Shown here piece after piece: positions 15,494 through 24,036 of a DNA stretch of 64,000 bases (position 1 is its first letter; each line of letters opens with the position of its first letter). Position numbers and translations under genes: made by a program. This stretch comes from Nonomuraea thailandensis. GTDB lineage: Bacteria > Actinomycetota > Actinomycetes > Streptosporangiales > Streptosporangiaceae. Under the pieces are notes generated by a model. It saw nothing but the letters and a program-made list of their open reading frames with translations. It searched no databases and was not told the DNA's origin. The DNA lies in assembly GCF_024172165.1 (NCBI RefSeq), contig NZ_JAMZEB010000002.1, positions 6,779,501 to 6,843,500 on the forward strand. The letters are read 5' to 3'.

Positions 15494-16804
15494 TCACTCC
15501 CCCGCCAGCACGGCCAGGACCCCGGCCAGCAGCGTGTCGTCGTGCTCGGCCGGCACCGCGCGCAGGTCGAGCAGGCACCGGCCGTTCTCCACGCGGGCCA
15601 GGACGGGCGGCCGCGCCCGGCGTAACGCGGCGGCCACCCGCCCGTCCAGCGCGACGGCGGCGCTCGGCAGGGACACCCCCGGCGCCCCGCCGCCGCCGAC
15701 CACGCTGCGGCTGTCGACGGCCTCGGCGCCGACGCCCTTGTCACGCAGCCGGGCCGCCAGGCTCTCGGCGCGCGACCTCAGCGCGGCCTGATCGGCGTGC
15801 AGGCTCTCCCGGGTGGGGGTCGGCGGGCCGGCGACCGTGGCCTCCATGGCCGCCAGCGTGATCTTGTCCACCCGCAGCGCGCGGGCGAGAGGATGGCGGC
15901 GCAACCGCTCCACGAGGTCGGCCCGGCCGAACAGCAGCCCGCACTGGGGGCCGCCGAGCAGCTTGTCGCCGCTGGTGGTGACGAGGTCGGCGCCCTCGTT
16001 CAGCCAGCTCGTGACGTCGGGCTCGCGGGGCAGCAGCGGCTCGGGAGCCAGCAGCCCGGAGCCGGCGTCCGCGACGAGCGGGACGCCGCGCTCGCGGCAC
16101 AGCGCCGACAGCCGCTCCACCGGCACGTCGGCCGTGAAGCCCTCGATCCGGTAGTTGGACGGGTGCACCTTCAGCACCATGCCCGTCAGCGGCCCGATCG
16201 CGCCGGCGTAGTCCTCGACGGCGGTGCGGTTGGTCATGCCGACCTCCCGCAGCCGCGCCCCCGTGGAGACGAGCAGGTCGGGCAGGCGGAACCCGTCGCC
16301 GATCTCGATCAGCTCGCCCCGGCTGATCACGATCTCGCCTCCGGCCGCCAGCGCGGTGGCCGCCAGCACGAGCGCGGCGGCGTTGTTGTTCACCACGTGG
16401 ACCGCCTCGGCAGCGGGGACGGCGGCGGCCAGCGCGGCCAGCGCGGTGCGCCCCCGCCTGCCCCGGCCGCCGGTGCCGAGGTCGAGCTCGACGTCGGTGA
16501 CCCCGGCGGCCAGCTCCACCGCCTGCCGGGCGGCGGCCGACAGCGGGGCGCGGCCCAGGTTGGTGTGCAGCAGCACGCCCGTGGCGTTGATCACCGGCCG
16601 CAGGCCGGAGGCGGAGGCGGGCAGCGCCGCCAGCACCGCGGCCAGCACTTCCTCCGGCGCCAGCTCGCCCTCCCTGGCGCGCCGCTGCGCCGCGACGATC
16701 GCGCCCTTGACCTGGGCGTGGCCGAGCCGCCTGCGCGCCTCGACCAGCCGGGGGTCGGCGAGCAGCGCGTCCGTCCGCGGGATGGAGCGACGATGGTCTG
16801 CCAT
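15494..16804 (-). CDS. selA: L-seryl-tRNA(Sec) selenium transferase
   Basis: The protein has 436 residues. SelA is a PLP enzyme that converts seryl-tRNA(Sec) to selenocysteinyl-tRNA(Sec) with selenophosphate. The sequence shows the SelA hallmarks: RPVINATGVLLHTNLGRAPL, VNNNAAALVLA, SRGELIEIGDGFRLPD, HPSNYRIEGF and the PLP lysine in SGDKLLGGPQCG. The length is close to the bacterial norm of 460 or so. ATG 16804 is preferred; GTG 16807 directly before it is possible. It is divergent from selD with only 17 bp between the starts, and its 3' end abuts the kinase array without overlap. Confidence 0.95.
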   Translation of the reverse strand: MADHRRSIPRTDALLADPRLVEARRRLGHAQVKGAIVAAQRRAREGELAPEEVLAAVLAALPASASGLRPVINATGVLLHTNLGRAPLSAAARQAVELAAGVTDVELDLGTGGRGRRGRTALAALAAAVPAAEAVHVVNNNAAALVLAATALAAGGEIVISRGELIEIGDGFRLPDLLVSTGARLREVGMTNRTAVEDYAGAIGPLTGMVLKVHPSNYRIEGFTADVPVERLSALCRERGVPLVADAGSGLLAPEPLLPREPDVTSWLNEGADLVTTSGDKLLGGPQCGLLFGRADLVERLRRHPLARALRVDKITLAAMEATVAGPPTPTRESLHADQAALRSRAESLAARLRDKGVGAEAVDSRSVVGGGGAPGVSLPSAAVALDGRVAAALRRARPPVLARVENGRCLLDLRAVPAEHDDTLLAGVLAVLAGE

Positions 16805-16821
16805 CACCCTAGAGTACGATC
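16805..16821. promoter_or_regulatory. Compact bidirectional promoter between selA and selD
   Basis: The gap between the two start codons is 17 bp, including the near-palindromic TAGAGTA. Read rightward, TAGAGT is a -10 box 6 bases before the selD ATG. Read leftward, TACTCT lies 6 bases before the selA ATG. Both transcripts would then be leaderless and would compete for one site. No Shine-Dalgarno sequence fits in the gap. Confidence 0.5.
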
Positions 16822-17814
16822 ATGACGAGGCTCACACAGTACGCCCAAGGCGGCGGCTGCGCCTGCAAGATCCCCGCGGCGGACCTGGAGCTGCTGCTGA
16901 GCAGTTCGCGCCTGCCGTTCCCGCGGCACCCGGAAGCGGAGCTCCTGGTGGGTCTGGAATCCGGCGACGACGCCGCCGTGGTCCGCACCCAGGACGGCAC
17001 CGTGATCATCAGCACGGCCGACTTCTTCACCCCGGTGGTCGACGACCCCTACGACTGGGGCCGCATCGCCGCGGCCAACGCGCTCTCCGACGTCTACGCC
17101 ATGGGCGGGCGCCCGCTGGTCGCGCTCAACCTGCTGTGCTGGCCCCCCGACCGCTTACCCTACGAGCTGGCCTCCGAGGTGCTGCGGGGCGGCGCGGAGG
17201 TGGCCGCGCAGGCGGGCTGCCACCTGGCCGGCGGGCACAGCGTCGTCGACGCCGAGCCCAAGTACGGCCTGGCCGTCACCGGCGCCGCCGACCCCGACCG
17301 GCTGCTCCAGAACAGCACCGGCCGCCCCGGCCTGCCGCTGTCGCTGACCAAGCCGCTCGGCCTGGGCGTGCTCAACAACCGGCACAAGCGCACCGGCGAG
17401 GTGTTCCCGCACGCCGTGGAGACCATGACCCGGCTCAACGCGGAGGCCTCCCGCGCGGCCCTGGCCGCCGGGATCCGGTGCGCCACGGACGTCACCGGCT
17501 TCGGCCTGCTGGGTCACCTCCACAAGCTCGCCCGGGCCTCCGGTGTGACCGCCGTGATCCACGCCCCGGCCGTTCCGGTGCTGGACGGCGCGGCGCAGGC
17601 CGTACGGGAGGGGTTCGTGCCCGGCGGCTCGCAGCGCAACCTCGACTGGGTGACCCCCCACCTCGACCACCGCGGCGTCCCGGAGGAGACGCTGCTGCTC
17701 CTCGCCGACGCGCAGACCTCAGGAGGGCTGCTCGTCGCCGGCGAGATCCCCGGCGCCCCCGTGATCGGCGAGCTGATCGAGCACACCGGGCACACTGTCA
17801 TCGTCCGCCCGTGA
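16822..17814 (+). CDS. selD: Selenophosphate synthetase (selenide, water dikinase)
   Basis: The protein has 330 residues. It makes selenophosphate from selenide and ATP for SelA. The N-terminal catalytic motif is GGGCACKIP (Cys13, Lys16), here with Cys where some organisms encode Sec. GDDAAV, ANALSDVYAMGGRP and a late TSGGLLVA are family landmarks of the AIR-synthase-like ATP-binding fold. It diverges from selA and is followed 42 bp later by tRNA-Sec, so the cofactor and the tRNA are made from adjacent units. Confidence 0.95.
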   Translation: MTRLTQYAQGGGCACKIPAADLELLLSSSRLPFPRHPEAELLVGLESGDDAAVVRTQDGTVIISTADFFTPVVDDPYDWGRIAAANALSDVYAMGGRPLVALNLLCWPPDRLPYELASEVLRGGAEVAAQAGCHLAGGHSVVDAEPKYGLAVTGAADPDRLLQNSTGRPGLPLSLTKPLGLGVLNNRHKRTGEVFPHAVETMTRLNAEASRAALAAGIRCATDVTGFGLLGHLHKLARASGVTAVIHAPAVPVLDGAAQAVREGFVPGGSQRNLDWVTPHLDHRGVPEETLLLLADAQTSGGLLVAGEIPGAPVIGELIEHTGHTVIVRP

Positions 17815-17856
17815 ACGGCGGGAAATGCGGTCGTTCGCGGGTCTATGATCAGCTTC

Positions 17857-17949
17857 GGAGGCGTTCAGGAGTCTGGTGACCCTCCTGGTCTTCAAAACCA
17901 GTGGCGCCGAGCATCTCGGCGCGGCGGGTTCGATTCCCGTCCGCCTCCG
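17857..17949 (+). tRNA. selC: tRNA-Sec (anticodon TCA)
   Basis: This 93-nt tRNA has the bacterial selenocysteine-tRNA shape. It has a GGAGGCG/CGCCTCC acceptor stem, an extended six-pair D stem (CAGGAG/CTCCTG), and an anticodon arm CTGGT-CTTCAAA-ACCAG with anticodon TCA. The long variable arm GCGCCGAG-cat-CTCGGCGC and the T arm with GGTTCGATTCC follow. The discriminator is G and CCA is not encoded. It reads UGA as Sec. Confidence 0.97.
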
Positions 17950-18009
17950 CTGATCCGGAAAATCGAGGCATCGTTTGCGAGCAGACCGACGCGGCGCGGT
18001 GGAGCACGC

Positions 18010-19746
18010 GTGCACGTGATCGCGACGGCCGGGCACGTGGACCACGGCAAGTCGACGCTGGTCCGGGCGCTGACCGGCATGGAGCCGGACCGCTGGGCCG
18101 AGGAACGCCGCCGCGGCATGACGATCGACCTCGGGTTCGCCTGGACCACGCTCGGCTCGGGTGAGCGGATCGCGTTCGTCGACGTTCCCGGGCACGAGCG
18201 GTTCGTCACCAACATGCTGGCCGGGGTCGGGCCCTGCCCCGCGGTGATGCTCGTCGTGGCGGCCGACCAGGGCTGGCAGGCCCAGTCGGCCGAGCACCTG
18301 GCCGCCCTGGAGGCCCTGGGCGTGCGGCACGGGCTCGCGGTCGTCACCCGCGCCGACCTCGCGGATCCCGGGCCCGCCCTGAGCCAGGTCCACGATCACC
18401 TCCGCGGGACCGGGCTGGCGGGGATCGGCAGCGTCGTCGTCAGCGGGCGGACCCGGCAGGGGCTCGGCGAGCTGGAGACCGCCCTGGCCCGGCTCGCCGC
18501 CGCGTTACCCGAGCCGGACACCGGCGGCGCCGTCCGGTTGTGGATCGACCGGGTGTTCACCGTCACCGGGGCGGGGACCGTCGTCACCGGCACCCTGACC
18601 GGGGGAACGCTGCGCGTCGGCGACGAGCTGGAGGCGGGCGGGGCCCGGGTCGCGATCCGGGGGCTCCAGACGCTCGGCGAGAAGGCGGAGCGGGTCCGCG
18701 CGACCGCCCGCGTCGCCGTCAACCTGCGGGGCGTCGGCCGCGGCGACCTGTCCCGCGGCATGGCGCTGGTGACACCACGGGCGTGGCTGCCGGCCCGGGT
18801 CATCGACGTACGGCTCGATCCCGCGATGAGCCGCAGGCGGGAGGAGGCGGTGCTCCACGTCGGATCGGCCGCCGTTCCCGTCAGGATCCGCGTGCTCGGC
18901 CCCGACACCGCCCGGCTCACCCTCGGCCGCCCGCTGCCGCTCAGGACCGGCGATCGGGGCCTGCTCCGCGACCCCGGCAGGCGGGAGATCGTCGCCGGGC
19001 TCCTCGTGCTGGACGTCCGCCCGCCCGCGTTACGGCGCCGGGGCGCCGCGGCGGCCAGAGCCGCCGCGCTCGGCGAGGTGCGCCTGCCCGACGCCGCGGC
19101 GCTGCTGCGCTGGCACGGCCTGCTGACGGCCGGCGAGCTCACGGCGATGGGCTGTCCTCCTGGCGGGACTCCGGTGGCCGGCGACTGGCACGCCGACCCG
19201 GAGCACTGGTCGTCGCTGGCACGCCGGCTCGCCGAGCACGTCGCGCGACGGCCCGCGCACGATCCGGGGATCACCGTGGACGCCGCGGCCCGGCTGCTGG
19301 GGCTGCCCGACCGGCGGCTCGCCGAGGCGCTCGTCGCGCCGCCGCTGGTGATCGAGGGCGGGCGTGTCCTGCCCGCCGGCAGGTCGCTGCCTCCCGCGAT
19401 CGCCACGGCGGTCGCGAAGCTGGCCGCCGACCTCGCCGGGCGCCCCTTCGCCGCGCCCACCGCCGAACGCCTGGACGAGCTCGGCCTCACGGGCAGGACG
19501 CTGGCGGCCGCGATCCGCGCGGGCGCGGTGTTGTCGATCGGAAAGAACGTCGTGCTCCTGCCCGACGCGCTGGACCGGGCCGCGGACGCGCTCGCGGCGC
19601 TGCCCTCGCCCTTCACCGTCAGCGACGCGCGGGTGGCCCTGGCCACCAGCCGCCGCGTCGCCCTGCCTGTCCTGGAGTGTCTCGATGCCCGCGGAATCAC
19701 CCATCGCGTCGACGACGACCGGCGCGCCCTCCGCCCGCGCGCCTGA
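18010..19746 (+). CDS. selB: Selenocysteine-specific elongation factor
   Basis: The protein has 578 residues and starts at GTG 18010 (VHVIATAGHVDHGKST), 60 bp after tRNA-Sec. SelB carries Sec-tRNA to the ribosome at UGA codons marked by a SECIS hairpin. The N-terminal 170 residues are the GTPase (GHVDHGKST, DVPGHE, VTRADLAD in place of the usual NKxD). EF-Tu-like beta-barrels follow to about 340. The C-terminal 230 residues are winged helices with RLLGLPDRRLAEAL and LDELGLTGRTLAAAI, which in SelB bind the SECIS loop. Its presence shows that this genome decodes UGA as Sec. Confidence 0.95.
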   Translation: MHVIATAGHVDHGKSTLVRALTGMEPDRWAEERRRGMTIDLGFAWTTLGSGERIAFVDVPGHERFVTNMLAGVGPCPAVMLVVAADQGWQAQSAEHLAALEALGVRHGLAVVTRADLADPGPALSQVHDHLRGTGLAGIGSVVVSGRTRQGLGELETALARLAAALPEPDTGGAVRLWIDRVFTVTGAGTVVTGTLTGGTLRVGDELEAGGARVAIRGLQTLGEKAERVRATARVAVNLRGVGRGDLSRGMALVTPRAWLPARVIDVRLDPAMSRRREEAVLHVGSAAVPVRIRVLGPDTARLTLGRPLPLRTGDRGLLRDPGRREIVAGLLVLDVRPPALRRRGAAAARAAALGEVRLPDAAALLRWHGLLTAGELTAMGCPPGGTPVAGDWHADPEHWSSLARRLAEHVARRPAHDPGITVDAAARLLGLPDRRLAEALVAPPLVIEGGRVLPAGRSLPPAIATAVAKLAADLAGRPFAAPTAERLDELGLTGRTLAAAIRAGAVLSIGKNVVLLPDALDRAADALAALPSPFTVSDARVALATSRRVALPVLECLDARGITHRVDDDRRALRPRA

Positions 19747-20170
19747 GGTCGACCGGCTGCTGGCCCGGGCCCGCGCGGGCCTGCGGCGCCTGCCGCCCGC
19801 GGAGGCCTGGGCCGCCGTGGGCCGCGGCGCGAAGATCGTCGACACCCGGCCCGAGCACCAGCGCAGGGCCGCGGGCGAGATCCCCGGAGCCGTCGTGGTC
19901 GAACGCAACCACCTGGAGTGGCGGCTCGACCCCACGTGCGAGTCCCGCATTCCCGAGGCGGCCTCCCGCCACGTCCAGTGGATCGTGATCTGCGCCGAGG
20001 GGTACTCGTCCTCGCTGGCCGCGGCGGCGCTGCGCGAGCTCGGCCTGCACGACGCCACCGATGTCGTCGGCGGGTTCGGCGCCTGGGTGGAGGCCGGCCT
20101 GCCGACGGTGCGCCCCGCCAGGCCCACGGCGCCGCGCGGGCCCGGAGAGGGCGCCGTCCCGGCGGGCTAG
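19685..20170 (+). CDS. Rhodanese-like protein overlapping selB
   Basis: The protein has 161 residues. The rhodanese domain (about 40-145) contains KIVDTRPEHQR, GEIPGAVVVERN and the active loop ICAEGYSSS with the catalytic Cys, then LHDATDVVGGFGAW. The only suitable start is ATG 19685, giving a 62-bp overlap with the selB 3' end in another frame and hence probable co-translation. Rhodaneses can carry perselenide as well as persulfide, so supplying selenium to SelD is a plausible role from position. This is inference. The stop shares the CTAG at 20167-20170 with the stop of the opposing lipoprotein gene. Confidence 0.85.
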   Translation: MPAESPIASTTTGAPSARAPEVDRLLARARAGLRRLPPAEAWAAVGRGAKIVDTRPEHQRRAAGEIPGAVVVERNHLEWRLDPTCESRIPEAASRHVQWIVICAEGYSSSLAAAALRELGLHDATDVVGGFGAWVEAGLPTVRPARPTAPRGPGEGAVPAG

Positions 20171-20673
20171 GACGGCAGGGTGTCCAGATGGGTGCGCGCG
20201 GTCTCCGCGAACTGCTGGAGCCGCGTGTCCGGCACGGTGCCGCCGAGCACGATGAACCTGTCCTTCGACATCGCCGCCACCTCCACCTCGCCGTCGTGGC
20301 GGGCGACGTTCTTGGGGCCCACCACCGAGTCGACGCTGCCCGCGGCGCCGCATTCCGCGTGGAAGGACTTGAACGCGTCCATGGCGTCCACCCCGCTCAC
20401 CACGATCTGCGTCACCGTGGCACCGTCCGTCGCCTTGAAGGATCGCCACCGGGTCACCGCCTCCGCCGGCGCGATGCCCGGTTTCCCGCAGGGCACCAGG
20501 GCCGCGTCCAGGTCCTGCCAGGTCCCCTCCGAGGTGCCCGTGACCGTCCACGTGCGGCCGTCGTCGAGCTGGCCCGGTTCCAGGAGGAGCGGGGCGGGCC
20601 CGGTCTTCTGCGCCGTCGCCGTGCCGCAGGCGGTGCAGAGCAGCGCGATGACGATCGCGATCGTGCGGTTCAT
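20167..20673 (-). CDS. Small exported lipoprotein or secreted protein
   Basis: The protein has 168 residues. The N-terminus MNRTIAIVIALLCTACGTA is a signal peptide with a lipobox-like LCTAC. The mature domain (GRTWTVTGTSEGTW, MDAFKSFHAECG, DRFIVLGGTVPDTRLQQF) resembles small PknH-like extracytoplasmic sensor lipoproteins with two conserved Cys, but the match is weak. It is the last gene of the minus-strand redox operon, 32 bp after the MauE-like gene. Its function is unknown. Confidence 0.7.
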   Translation of the reverse strand: MNRTIAIVIALLCTACGTATAQKTGPAPLLLEPGQLDDGRTWTVTGTSEGTWQDLDAALVPCGKPGIAPAEAVTRWRSFKATDGATVTQIVVSGVDAMDAFKSFHAECGAAGSVDSVVGPKNVARHDGEVEVAAMSKDRFIVLGGTVPDTRLQQFAETARTHLDTLPS

Positions 20674-20705: not shown

Positions 20706-21239
20706 TTACCGCCCGTGGGCCGTGGAGGTTCCGTGCAGGTCGGCGACCTTTCCCGCCACGATCACGAACGCCGCCGCGAAGCCGGCCAGCCCGCAGGCGA
20801 CCAGCCGCGCGCCCGGCTCGGCCGGTACCGGCGGCCATCCTGCCACGAGCGGCGCCGTCGCCAGAGCGAGCAGCGCGGCGCGGCCTACCTTGGCGGCCGA
20901 CACCGGGCTGGTGCCGTCCAGGCATCCGCACGGCACCCCGCCCCTGCGCCGCAGCAGTACGGCCAGGTAGCCGGCCAGCGCCACGTACCACAGTGCCACG
21001 GCCGCGGCGGCGGGCCGCAACAGCCGGGCCTCCCCGGTCGCCCACCCGGCCAGGACGGCCGCGCCGGCCAGGCCCTCGGCGGGCCCGATGAGCGGCGTGA
21101 GCCGTACCAGGAAGGAGGGGAGCAGGCCGTGCGACCTGATCACCCGCGTCAGGTCGCCGCGGCGGCGCACCGCCGCGACGACCAGCAGCACGGCGCCCGC
21201 CAGGGCGAAGCAGGCAGCCAACGTGTCGAGGATCGTCAT
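20706..21239 (-). CDS. MauE-like (DoxX/VKOR-type) redox membrane protein
   Basis: The protein has 177 residues with four or five hydrophobic segments. The family MauE is needed for disulfide formation in methylamine dehydrogenase light chain. The match rests on the size, the N-terminal LAACFALAGAVLLVVAAV helix, a GPAEGLAGAAVLAG segment and the redox motif GVPCGCLDG between helices three and four. Its ATG directly follows the TAG of the upstream membrane protein with no gap, so the two are translated as a pair. Confidence 0.65.
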   Translation of the reverse strand: MTILDTLAACFALAGAVLLVVAAVRRRGDLTRVIRSHGLLPSFLVRLTPLIGPAEGLAGAAVLAGWATGEARLLRPAAAAVALWYVALAGYLAVLLRRRGGVPCGCLDGTSPVSAAKVGRAALLALATAPLVAGWPPVPAEPGARLVACGLAGFAAAFVIVAGKVADLHGTSTAHGR

Positions 21240-21953
21240 CTACGTCCAGAGGAGCGCGAGTGACAGCAGGAAGCCGGTGGCGCACAGGCGCCCCACCCAT
21301 GCCGTCGAGGCCAGCAACTTCGTGTCCCACCGGCGCGGGTCGCCGCTGAGCGCGCGGGAGAGCGGCATGAGCGCCCTGCCCACGCCGAAGCCCAGCCCGG
21401 CCAGCAGGCCCGGCCCCAGCCCTCCGGCCAGCACGATCACCAGGACGAGCAGCTGGGGCAGCGCCGTCGGGGTGAAGGTGCGCACGCCGGTGCCCATCTC
21501 GAAGCCGAACTGCAGCGGCCCGGAGAAGTCGGCGCGCGGGATGACGTCCTGCGGCACGAGCCGGCGGTTCTGCGGCAGCGACAGCGGCCGCCCGGCCAGC
21601 TCGAAGAGCATGATGACGACGACGATCGGGGCGAGCAGCCACAACCGCGCCGTTTCCGGAATGATCGACGCCAGCCCGCCGAGCGCTCCGGTGACGAGCC
21701 CGGCCAGCAGCGCGCCGAGCATGAGTCCGGTGCTGAACACCGGCAACTTGCCTCGCCAGACCGACGAGGTCAGCAGGTCCGCTGAGTTGAGGCTTCAAAC
21801 GGAGCCGGACAGCGAGAACCCGGCCGTCACCCCCAGCAGCGCCCAGGCGAGCGGGGTGAACGACGGGGTCCAGAGTTGGTGGGCGGCCGCCACCAGAGCC
21901 GCGCTCAGCGCGATGCCGAGCGCGACCCGGGTGGCGGCGTAGGTGTTGCCCAT
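21240..21953 (-). CDS. Polytopic membrane protein with in-frame TGA at codon 53, candidate selenoprotein
   Basis: From ATG 21953 (7 bp after the previous stop) the frame gives 52 residues with two membrane helices (ALGIALSAALVAAA; WALLGVTAGFSLSGSV). It then meets TGA at 21797-21795 and continues open for another 184 codons to TAG at 21240. The downstream part (LPVFSTGLMLGALLAGLV, LLAPIVVVIMLFEL, LLVLVIVLAGGLG) reads naturally as helices 3-6 of the same protein, with no frame change. It lies between MauA-like and MauE-like genes, 1.4 kb from the end of selB. Sec insertion is supported by the Sec locus and by a hairpin just after the TGA. Alternatives are a nonsense mutation or two proteins, the second starting at TTG 21746. 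The only Cys is in GRLCATG near the C-terminus. Confidence 0.6.
21750..21797 (-). promoter_or_regulatory. SECIS-like hairpin after the in-frame TGA
   Basis: Nine bases after the TGA, TCAGC (21785-21781) pairs with GCTGA (21774-21770) around the six-base loop GGACCT. The loop opens with G and closes on GC/GC, as in the E. coli fdhF element (loop AGGUCU, quoted from memory). An outer stem GCCTC (21793-21789) can pair with GAGGC (21754-21750). The two codons ending in A here, TCA and CGA, fall inside these stems in an otherwise strongly GC3 gene. The TGA-to-loop distance (14 nt) is slightly short for bacterial SECIS elements. Confidence 0.4.
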
Positions 21954-21960
21954 CCTGGAA

Positions 21961-22455
21961 CTACAGAGCCCAGGAGCAGATGTAGAAGTAGGTGCCGCCG
22001 CAGGTGGCGACGTTTCCGTCGGCGCAGCGGTAGCTCCTGCCGCTGTGCGTCCACCGCCAGGCGTTCCTGGCGGCCAGGCCGCCCGTGCCGCACGCCTTGA
22101 CCGCGTAGCTGTTGTAGCAGGTGCCCGAGGAGCGCAGGAACCAGCCGTCGGAGCCGCAGTAGCTCCTGGAGTAGGTGCCGCCGACGCAGACCTTGGTGTT
22201 GTTGTTGTAGCCGGTCCAGCTTCCGTAGTTGGCGCAGCTGGTGTACTCGGTGCCCACCGCCGCGTGGGCGCTGTTGTTCCTGCCCGGCAGGGCGGACAGC
22301 ACGTTCAGGGCCAGGGCGCCGCCCAGCGCGCCCATGGTCTTGAAGACGGTGCGGCGGGAGGGCGCCGACCAGGTCAGGCGGCTGCGCCCGCCGGTGTCGG
22401 GCTCGTCGTCCACGGAGGGCACGTCGGCCCAGTAACGGTCGACATCGACTGTCAT
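21961..22455 (-). CDS. Tat-exported Cys-rich protein, MauA (methylamine dehydrogenase light chain)-like
   Basis: The protein has 164 residues. After a 30-residue n-region comes a twin-arginine signal (SRRTVFKTMGALGGALALNV, cleavage near HAA). The mature 110 residues hold eight Cys and many Trp, Tyr and Gly (YTSCANYGSW, KVCVGG, SYCGSDGWF, CSWAL), the composition of the disulfide-stitched MauA light chain, though shorter and with 8 rather than 12 Cys. MauD- and MauE-like genes flank it, supporting a related folding route. No MauB heavy chain or MauG is present, so it is probably not an amine dehydrogenase as such. The ATG overlaps the upstream TGA (ATGA). Confidence 0.6.
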   Translation of the reverse strand: MTVDVDRYWADVPSVDDEPDTGGRSRLTWSAPSRRTVFKTMGALGGALALNVLSALPGRNNSAHAAVGTEYTSCANYGSWTGYNNNTKVCVGGTYSRSYCGSDGWFLRSSGTCYNSYAVKACGTGGLAARNAWRWTHSGRSYRCADGNVATCGGTYFYICSWAL

Positions 22456-22958
22456 GCGCTTGACCTCTCTGAGTGGCTGACGGCGAGGAAGGCGTCGAGG
22501 TCGTCGTCGGAGCCGACGACCCTGCGCCATTCCTCCGTCCCGTCGGCGGAGTACTTGACCAGCGTCGGGGTCGCGCCGACGGCGACCTTGCCGAGCAGGG
22601 CGGCGTCGATGAGGGACAGGACGTGGCTGCCGGCCACCCACTCGCCGCACCGCTCGGCGGCGGCCAGCAGCACGGCGTGCCCGGGCAGGTCCGGCCCGGC
22701 CACGGCGGCCAGGCGGTGGGCCCGCTCCCGGCAGTTGGGGCAGTGCTCGGAGACGACCAGCACGAACGTCGGCAGGCCGTCGTCGGAGCCGAACCGGTCC
22801 ACCGATCTGACGGCGGGCGCCGCCGGAACGGCCGCCTGCGCCTGGAGCAGCTTGCCCTGCAGCTCGCGCACCATGTTCAGCAGCGCGGCGAAGGCGAACA
22901 GCAGCAGCACCGTCCCCAGGAAGGACAGCACCGCCAGCGAGTCGAGGAACGCCCTCAT
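22452..22958 (-). CDS. Membrane-anchored thioredoxin-like protein, MauD-like
   Basis: The protein has 168 residues. A single N-terminal helix (LAVLSFLGTVLLLFAFAALL) anchors a thioredoxin fold with the redox motif SEHCPNCRERA and the cis-Pro region VGATPTLVKY. MauD proteins of this size deliver or maintain disulfides in the exported MauA subunit. The gene sits 4 bp after the first gene of the operon and overlaps the MauA-like gene, so the redox protein and its presumed Cys-rich substrate are made together. Confidence 0.7.
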   Translation of the reverse strand: MRAFLDSLAVLSFLGTVLLLFAFAALLNMVRELQGKLLQAQAAVPAAPAVRSVDRFGSDDGLPTFVLVVSEHCPNCRERAHRLAAVAGPDLPGHAVLLAAAERCGEWVAGSHVLSLIDAALLGKVAVGATPTLVKYSADGTEEWRRVVGSDDDLDAFLAVSHSERSSA

Positions 22959-22962
22959 CGAG

Positions 22963-23640
22963 CTAGCTCAGCCTGCACGAGATGGACTCCACGACGTCGA
23001 TGAAGCGCACGTCGTCCGGGCGGGCGGCGATCACGGTCGTCGCGGTGGTGTCGTTGACCATGAAGGCCGAGCGGGTCTGCACGGCGCCGGCGCCGTCCCG
23101 CTCGTCCACGCGCCACATCGAGCCGCCGCGCACGCGCTTGCCCTTGGCGCGCGGGACCGAGTCGGAGGCGTCCGCGAGCGGCTTGACCTGGACGTTGCAG
23201 ACCTGGTCGATGGTGTTGACCGCCAGCAGGTTGGCGAGCGTCAGGCCCGAGCCCGCCCGCGGCAGCATGGTCAGGCCTTCCGGGGTGTCCTGGATGTCGA
23301 ACTTGGCGAGGATGTCCATGAAGGTCTCGAAGGGGACGCCCGTGCCGGTGAAGAAGGTGGAGATCTCGTTGTGCGGCCCCACCCACACCATGTTGGTGCC
23401 GCTCTCCGGGTCCTCCAGGGACAGCAGCCGGCCGCCGTTCCACTGGGCCTCACGCACGGTGTAGCGCGACCAGTCGCCCATCTGCTTGGAAACGATTTCA
23501 GCAGACCCGGCCGGAGTCACCTGGAACCGGATGCCCTCGGTGGGGCCGTGTGCCCAGATGAGGTAGGCCCAGCCGCCGATGAAGGGCTGGGAGTTGCCGT
23601 CGACGACGAGACTCTGTCCGTTCGGTGCACGCACTTGCAT
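22963..23640 (-). CDS. Unknown protein, first gene of the Mau-like redox operon
   Basis: The protein has 225 residues, starting at ATG 23640 with GGAAGG 7 bases upstream. There is no signal peptide and no clear membrane segment. It is mixed alpha/beta with an N-terminal beta-rich half (WAYLIWAHGPTEGIRF, WSRYTVREAQWNGG) and two Cys (VCNVQ, SISCRLS). I do not recognise the family. Its lead position suggests a cytoplasmic partner, perhaps for regulation or for handling the exported MauA-like protein. Confidence 0.75.
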   Translation of the reverse strand: MQVRAPNGQSLVVDGNSQPFIGGWAYLIWAHGPTEGIRFQVTPAGSAEIVSKQMGDWSRYTVREAQWNGGRLLSLEDPESGTNMVWVGPHNEISTFFTGTGVPFETFMDILAKFDIQDTPEGLTMLPRAGSGLTLANLLAVNTIDQVCNVQVKPLADASDSVPRAKGKRVRGGSMWRVDERDGAGAVQTRSAFMVNDTTATTVIAARPDDVRFIDVVESISCRLS

Positions 23641-24036
23641 GGTGTTGCCTTCCACGAGGGGAAAACGGCACGCCGGAATGGCGTCCGCATGGGCGTCGAG
23701 CTGCGAGGGGGGTGCATGCGTGCCGGGCGCCTTGCCGGGCACCACCAGAATGATCGTCGGAAATATCTCACGGCGATCCACAGCCGGTCAAGATCTTGCT
23801 CAGGCCTCGGGACGGAGGTGATTCTCCGGAATGCGCAGGGGCCGCCCGGACCCAGCCTCGGCCCTTGTTTCCGCACGTCAGGCGGCGTTCGTCAGTCTCA
23901 CCCTCTCGCCGCCAGAGGCGCCGGCTGCTCCCCGGATCGGGGCTCTCGACGCCCCGTGGTGGCAGGGCATGGTGAACTCGGGGCGTGGCGGGGGTTCAGC
24001 GCCCCGGCGATGCGTCCGTCGTCGGGCTCGCGCGCC
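23641..24036. other. 396-bp intergenic region
   Basis: The region holds the Mau-like operon promoter and leader (23641-23791). Towards the VOC gene stop lies a CGGGGCG/CGCCCCG inverted pair on the minus strand that may end the VOC transcript. I see no additional gene. Short open frames here lack start signals and protein-like composition. Confidence 0.5.
23762..23791 (-). promoter_or_regulatory. Sigma-70-like promoter for the Mau-like operon
   Basis: On the minus strand TTGACC (23791-23786) is followed after 18 bases by GATATT (23767-23762), a good -35/-10 pair for a high-GC actinomycete. It leaves a leader of about 115 bases before the ATG at 23640. No other promoter is evident within the six-gene operon. 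Confidence 0.5.

Follow-up and report, generated by a model that had tools for sequence, protein, structure and literature searches.

The in-frame TGA at codon 53 of a membrane protein gene in Nonomuraea thailandensis is very probably read as selenocysteine, which would make the gene a member of an uncatalogued family of membrane selenoproteins. The gene (21240..21953, minus strand) lies in a window of 64,000 nucleotides, the whole stretch of DNA that was analysed. An ATG at 21953 opens a frame that crosses a TGA at 21797-21795 (21795..21797, minus strand), stays open for 184 further sense codons and closes with a TAG at 21242-21240, giving 237 residues with U53. An earlier note on this DNA had described a single frame through the TGA and proposed a new selenoprotein. 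The frame was confirmed on the sequence, and the proposal gained support from an alignment of 80 loci taken from named records, 79 of which have TGA at this codon, and from an exchange of Sec and Cys that follows SelA, with Cys in five SelA-less genomes. Judged from these sequence comparisons, residue 53 is almost certainly Sec.

The genes of the selenocysteine pathway lie on one side of the TGA gene, with selB, tRNA-Sec, selD and selA all within 5.8 kb. Profile matches bore out the claim that this genome encodes SelA (15494..16807, minus strand; TIGR00474, 434 bits), SelD (16822..17814, plus strand; TIGR00476, 384 bits), SelB (17845..19746, plus strand; TIGR00475, 266 bits) and tRNA-Sec (17857..17948, plus strand; 78.3 bits). 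Both selB and tRNA-Sec had been placed less than 2 kb from the TGA gene; this holds for the end of selB (1.5 kb) and not for tRNA-Sec (3.3 kb). The mechanically called selB open reading frame starts before tRNA-Sec and contains 17857-17948, so the real selB start lies further down. A rhodanese domain (PF00581, 47.3 bits; 19733-20170, plus strand) directly 3' of selB could supply the Sec pathway with selenium or sulfur. A formate dehydrogenase gene of N. thailandensis (7172413-7173180, minus strand, contig C2) has one in-frame TGA in the context ARVUHGPTV, which we take to be the classical Sec site of that enzyme; the Sec machinery therefore has at least two likely clients.

Relatives of the window's protein that are close in sequence keep the TGA. 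Within the genus, 23 of 54 genomes matched, with exactly one TGA in 32 of 33 places, and within the family 82 of 298 genomes matched at 99 places, 95 of which had one in-frame TGA. Three of the other four places have a TGA immediately before the matched stretch and the fourth is a broken copy. A pattern scan of genome contigs confirmed 144 relatives; among the best 80 of these 144, all actinomycete, the TGA stood at the aligned codon in 79, the exception being the same broken copy. Because one aligned codon carries the TGA in 79 of 80 loci, its occurrence at codon 53 is, on this alignment, not due to chance. Genera with family members include Nonomuraea, Streptomyces, Micromonospora and Amycolatopsis. 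Among 52 diverse close-branch sequences 24 columns were invariant, including S49, G50, S51, U53, N56, S57, R67, F149, G150, E152 to G156, R158 and T159. The close branch had only TGA at the site, and a Cys form was not found there. The broken copy, in Nonomuraea sp. SYSU D8015 (L045 / L012), has lost about the first 60 codons including the TGA; this strain also carries a second, TGA-bearing member.

TGA is a stop in translation table 11, and the codon could be a true stop or a sequencing error, so that the gene would be a pseudogene or would encode two proteins. The part before the TGA evolves fast, with a median Ka/Ks among 13 close relatives of 0.82 for residues 1-52 vs. 0.30 after the TGA, and 31 of 80 genes have an in-frame GTG 7 codons past the TGA. 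Across the diverse sequences, pN/pS was 1.0 for residues 1-35, 0.72 for 36-52, 0.58 for 54-68, 0.83 for 69-141, 0.61 for 142-200 and 1.05 for 201-236. From the two sets of values taken together, selection on the pre-TGA part is weak, its last 17 residues excepted. However, the majority identity of residues 36-52 (62%) falls within the range spanned by the segments of residues 54-200 (50 to 76%), and the first in-frame ATG or GTG after the TGA, found 6 to 68 codons downstream, has no place shared among the genes. With the aligned TGA in loci from many genera, the exchange of Sec and Cys, and the SECIS element described below, a stop or pseudogene was rejected as extremely improbable.

The occurrence of the protein follows that of the Sec machinery. 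Each of the 82 family genomes that encode the protein had a strong tRNA-Sec match, and the protein was present in none of the 117 genomes without one (Fisher 1.8e-22). The strong class was delimited by the gap between E values of 4.5e-13 and 6e-9, a stricter split than the cut-off of the tool, which 194 of 298 genomes exceeded; at E 0.001 the search matched nearly every genome, controls included. All 11 of the named-locus genomes tested for tRNA-Sec were positive, with 64 to 80 bits. Amycolatopsis vancoresmycina NRRL B-24208 (L071) carries a Sec member together with a 73.5-bit tRNA-Sec, although A. vancoresmycina DSM 44592 is entered as an orphan-SelD organism in Table 1 of a published paper (PMC5029168).

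A search across 396 genomes of the phylum matched 43, most of them through a distant branch of about 200-230 residues, which profile comparison with hhalign joined to the close branch (probability 99.35, E 6.6e-21). The reading of the site covered 29 loci beyond the window's own genome, and the site could be read in 27 (L144 ends with its contig and L153 is masked). The codon was TGA in 22 and Cys in 5 of these, mostly within a WSP-U/C-G motif. SelA was searched for in 30 of the 43 matched genomes; among 14 controls, four gave a match and one was over the cut-off. SelA was found in 25 of the 30, in all 22 TGA genomes and in none of the five Cys genomes, which are exactly the five that lack it. 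The chance of such a split among 27 genomes is 1 in 80,730 if relatedness is ignored. For 21 of the 22 TGA genomes the tRNA-Sec scores lay between 56 and 81 bits, and for the five Cys genomes between 42.6 and 49.7. The remaining TGA genome (G461, 87% complete) has SelA, and its best tRNA-Sec match, 51 bits, is not clear. Two Cys genomes (G446 and G367; 48.7 and 49.7 bits) exceed the Rfam tRNA-Sec cut-off of 47; their matches were read as other tRNAs because second-best matches in TGA genomes reach 53 bits, and the absence of SelA agrees with this reading.

The earlier note had named as decisive Cys in homologues from genomes without sel genes and TGA in genomes with them, and, for SelA and tRNA-Sec, this is what was found: five Cys genomes without SelA or a clear tRNA-Sec, and 22 TGA genomes with SelA. 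Cys homologues occur in the distant branch (5 of 27 sites) and not in the close branch, which has TGA only. An in-frame TGA with conserved flanks would also be expected if the codon were read as another amino acid through suppression or a change of code. The tie of the gene to tRNA-Sec and SelA, the Cys codons in SelA-less genomes and a SECIS of the published bacterial type all argue against such a reading, which was rejected as having a negligible likelihood.

The distant loci also differ among themselves. Four loci of the window's family (L139-L142) form a third sub-branch with the motif [VI]LSP-U-GRSMAG and a Cys-rich partner of its own; some genomes carry it as an additional, distinct selenoprotein. 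In two Cys-type genomes (L162:511-2028, minus strand, and L167:1474-2898, plus strand) the membrane protein has a C-terminal extension of about 250-290 residues, which in L162 is weakly beta-propeller-like (Gmad1, E 0.0022).

The RNA 3' of the UGA has the form of a bacterial SECIS element. An alignment of 59 genes (53 distinct) shows two hairpins after the UGA; the apical loop of the second, 32 nt downstream, is GGUCU in most. In the window the upper SECIS hairpin, CCUCGUC-GGUCU-GGCGAGG (21751..21769, minus strand; -10.0 kcal/mol), has a loop that starts 32 nt past the UGA. A first hairpin of 5 pairs (21770..21785, minus strand; 85.3% of cells paired) lies between it and the UGA and may contribute to the element. 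Standard pairs made up 88.8% of pair cells vs. 35 to 48% when the structure was slid along the alignment. None of 500 shuffles attained the covariation score, in a test that ignores relatedness and does not give a probability, and 36 of 500 attained the count of further pair types. The outermost pair fails in 30 of the 53 distinct genes. Codon choice at S63 and R67 points to pressure on the RNA: among 52 genes, all 48 with Ser at position 63 use TCG, and CGA encodes R67 in 31 of 52, compared with 51 of the 740 remaining Arg residues of these genes (Fisher 3.5e-20).

Published rules for bacterial elements place the hairpin 16-37 nt after the UGA with a G in the first two loop positions, as given in the 2026 catalogue (PMC13188914). 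We implemented these rules for unbroken stems only, and the recodings used close-branch codon usage. In the close branch 43 of 52 genes satisfied the rules and in the distant branch 24 of 25 TGA genes did, compared with 16.8% and 26.2% of the respective synonymous recodings; of the five Cys genes one did. Taken gene by gene, only 16 of 52 close and 8 of 25 distant genes exceeded their own recodings at the 5% level, and the SECIS evidence is thus collective. A SECIS covariance model run over the whole genome of N. thailandensis returned 40 matches up to E 10, with the site in the TGA gene at 72.7 bits and the next at 24.9 bits; the latter lies at the start of a gene that by eye resembles an ABC-transporter permease. 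In the close branch, 44 of 52 genes have T immediately before the UGA (21798 and its homologues), where the background is about 7%. T also precedes the UGA in the organism's own fdhA and in only 5 of 25 distant-branch genes, and a U before the UGA was rejected as a general feature.

The window's protein matched no Pfam family. Its 52 close-branch relatives gave scattered weak Pfam matches, the best at E 0.00035 for one member (SoxE_N), and none of the 52 matched DsbD. The distant branch matched DsbD_2 in 12 of 26 members (best 2.1e-6), DsbD_TM in 4 of 26 (best 3.8e-6) and the NCBIfam DsbD model NF001419 in 2 of 26. Compared with actinomycete CcdA, the distant-branch profile gave a probability of 91.9 (E 7.1e-7) with WSP-U/C over SPC, so that its Sec or Cys, Sec in most members, aligns with the first redox Cys of CcdA; direct comparison of the close branch with CcdA by hhalign gave nothing. 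The second CcdA redox Cys (TPC) is missing: outside the Sec column, neither branch has a Cys that is invariant or nearly so.

The AF2 model of the Sec protein (pLDDT 94.5, pTM 0.92) has two interrupted helix pairs, 33-46/52-62 around U53 and 144-155/165-176, and U53 starts the short helix 52-62 after a break at 47-51. In the model, residues 33-46 and 52-62 may form one kinked transmembrane helix, and the two broken pairs may correspond to the two kinked helices of CcdA. Sec53 had been placed at the outer end of helix 2 or in the loop after it, a placement that the model corrects to the start of helix 52-62. The accompanying proposal that Sec53 is a redox residue gains from the homology of the distant branch to CcdA and DsbD. 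A Foldseek search of the model against the PDB yielded 271 matches with E values of 10 or less, and none reached E 0.001; the best was a ZIP transporter (E 0.1, TM 0.17). The resemblance to CcdA and DsbD (PF02683, PF13386) lies in the DsbD matches and aligned SPC motif of the distant branch and in the interrupted helix pairs of the window's model. The family differs from them in having Sec for the first Cys, in a second Cys that is not conserved and, in the window's branch, in an extra N-terminal helix and the lack of a direct Pfam DsbD or CcdA match. Descent of the family from CcdA-like conduits appears highly likely from these profile comparisons.

The TGA gene belongs to a closely packed series of same-strand genes. 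The series begins with a gene of an unknown family (22963..23781, minus strand; its start is uncertain, with one near 23640 possible), which has a homologue in 77 of 81 close loci. Next is a thioredoxin-like protein with an N-terminal hydrophobic stretch and a CPNC motif (22452..22958, minus strand), whose TGA stop overlaps the following ATG. A Cys-rich protein (21961..22455, minus strand) with 8 Cys, an RR signal and a WxW motif stands directly before the Sec gene; it is predicted to be exported and is the presumed substrate. The ATG of a MauE-family membrane protein with a CGC motif (20706..21239, minus strand) comes directly after the TAG of the Sec gene, and a gene that looks lipoprotein-like by eye (20167..20673, minus strand), present in only 17 of 81 loci, ends the operon.

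The neighbours had been described as MauD-, MauA- and MauE-like. The MauE assignment was borne out (PF07291, 41.9 bits against a cut-off of 27). The MauD-like protein has the CPNC motif, with a thioredoxin match that stays below threshold (Thioredoxin_2, E 0.14, 12.9 bits against a cut-off of 27). The MauA label was dropped as unsupported: the 8-Cys protein with its RR signal matched no methylamine dehydrogenase light chain in Pfam or among PDB sequences. Its one Pfam match was to TAT_signal (E 0.03, below the cut-off of that model), and a fold search with its model (pLDDT 71) gave no significant match.

The partners recur across the close branch. Counts for the MauE, MauD-like and first genes were made by HMM search alone in 81 close loci (the window, 79 others and the broken copy). 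The CPNC protein was found in 79 of the 81, with each Cys of the CxxC kept in 73 of 79. MauE was found in 60 of the 81, in 31 of these downstream on the same strand, and each Cys of its CxC was present in 53 of the 60. For the Cys-rich protein the iterated HMM drifted into wrong frames in some loci, the window's included, and a strict open reading frame test (five or more Cys and a C(x)D/G step) was therefore adopted. This test called 70 of 80 loci, two of which were discarded by eye, leaving 68. Of the 10 loci that it passed over, at least two (L060, L075) have a Cys-rich protein according to the HMM search. Under the strict test the Cys-rich protein thus lies directly upstream of the Sec gene in 68 of 80 close loci. 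All 68 partners share five Cys, an Asp and both Trp residues of WxW (D146, W133 and W135 in the window's protein); RR was present in 66, a sixth Cys in 64 and an even number of Cys in 67, with the Cys and Asp counts partly a product of the test's own demands for Cys number and C(x)D/G.

In the distant branch, other Cys-rich signal proteins were seen by eye directly upstream in 9 of 30 loci (L139-L142, L156, L161, L162, L167, L171), and a CxxC thioredoxin-like frame lies directly upstream in six others (L150, L152, L155, L158, L164, L165). The remaining distant loci had neither within their short flanks. A motif scan of the 30 loci found no separate MauE downstream; the Sec protein of L161 carries a fused MauE domain (E 2.3e-24).

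The operon partners are the main support for a role in the handling of disulfides. We consider it probable that the protein is a Sec-containing, CcdA-like electron conduit serving the disulfides of its exported Cys-rich partner. SelB and the SECIS hairpin, to judge from conservation, would insert Sec at codon 53 of a protein that is distantly related to the CcdA/DsbD transmembrane conduits and carries Sec where these have their first Cys. Electrons would then cross the membrane, most likely through a mixed selenenyl-sulfide with a partner; candidates for this partner are the CPNC thioredoxin-like protein on the outer side, MauE with its CGC motif and a cytosolic thioredoxin. As an outcome, the product of the gene directly upstream, the exported Cys-rich protein, would have its disulfides made or corrected. 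The presence of selenium in the protein, the export of the Cys-rich partner, the redox partner, the direction of electron flow and the substrate are all inferred. Several results weigh against this reading: the close branch gave neither a Cys form nor a direct match to DsbD or CcdA, the second CcdA Cys is missing, the PDB search found nothing significant, MauE and Cys-rich neighbours are patchy (60 of 81 close and 9 of 30 distant loci, respectively), G461 has TGA with a doubtful tRNA-Sec, and constraint before the TGA is weak.

A single conserved redox residue without a second Cys would also suit a selenoprotein that is a transporter or handles a metal or selenium. The gene lies beside the sel genes, the weak best Foldseek matches are transporters, and the catalogue lists Sec transporters such as YeeE/YedE with GUxSG (PMC13188914; compare SO_0444 efflux). 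Such a function is nonetheless improbable: no Pfam transporter matched above chance, the distant branch matches DsbD families, a Cys-rich signal protein lies directly upstream in 68 of 80 close and 9 of 30 distant loci, and L161 carries the MauE fusion.

MauD and MauE act in methylamine dehydrogenase biogenesis. The window's operon resembles a mau cluster in having a MauE homologue by the Sec gene, a CPNC thioredoxin-like protein and a Cys-rich signal partner, and the operon might equip the Cys-rich WxW protein with a Trp-derived or other cofactor, the Sec protein acting as conduit. The MauE family member and the partners' conserved WxW, single Asp and even Cys number are in keeping with this. 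However, in contrast to a mau cluster, neither Pfam nor PDB sequences identify the partner as a methylamine dehydrogenase light chain, no dehydrogenase subunit was recognised in the operon, and WxW could be structural; we think cofactor maturation quite doubtful. A broader proposal, which we hold to be unlikely, is a Sec-dependent transmembrane redox machine of actinomycetes for a hitherto unrecognised class of exported proteins with an invariant WxW and an even number of Cys, possibly with a Trp- or Cys-derived cofactor; the close branch would then be a rare selenoprotein lineage that has no Cys versions.

The 2026 selenoprotein catalogue lists 119 families in Table 1 (PMC13188914), and that table includes no MauE-linked or CcdA-only family. 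The earlier statement that no described selenoprotein family of this kind was known stands as far as the table goes. The families of this source share with ours the UGA, the bacterial SECIS and the exchange of Sec and Cys. The nearest is TsoB (NF045694, rhodanese/DsbD fusion-like), the sole entry in the table named as DsbD-like; TsoB, however, has UxxxxU with two Sec and, by its name, a rhodanese part, whereas the window's family has one Sec and no rhodanese match. Only 2 of 52 close-branch members reach the TsoB model, the best at E 0.065. No NCBIfam model of its own was found for the family, and in the open-licence full-text literature no title or abstract start among the matches listed reports it.

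These results add an uncatalogued selenoprotein family that extends across many actinomycete genera. Gene calling with table 11 would be expected to cut such genes at the TGA. The deep-Sep predictor, according to its description, may miss selenoproteins without Cys homologues (PMC12013277), a limit that would describe the close branch. For actinomycetes that use Sec, the family is a candidate client of the sel genes beside formate dehydrogenase. The use of Sec inside a CcdA-like membrane protein would offer a system in which to ask why a cell pays for one membrane Sec.
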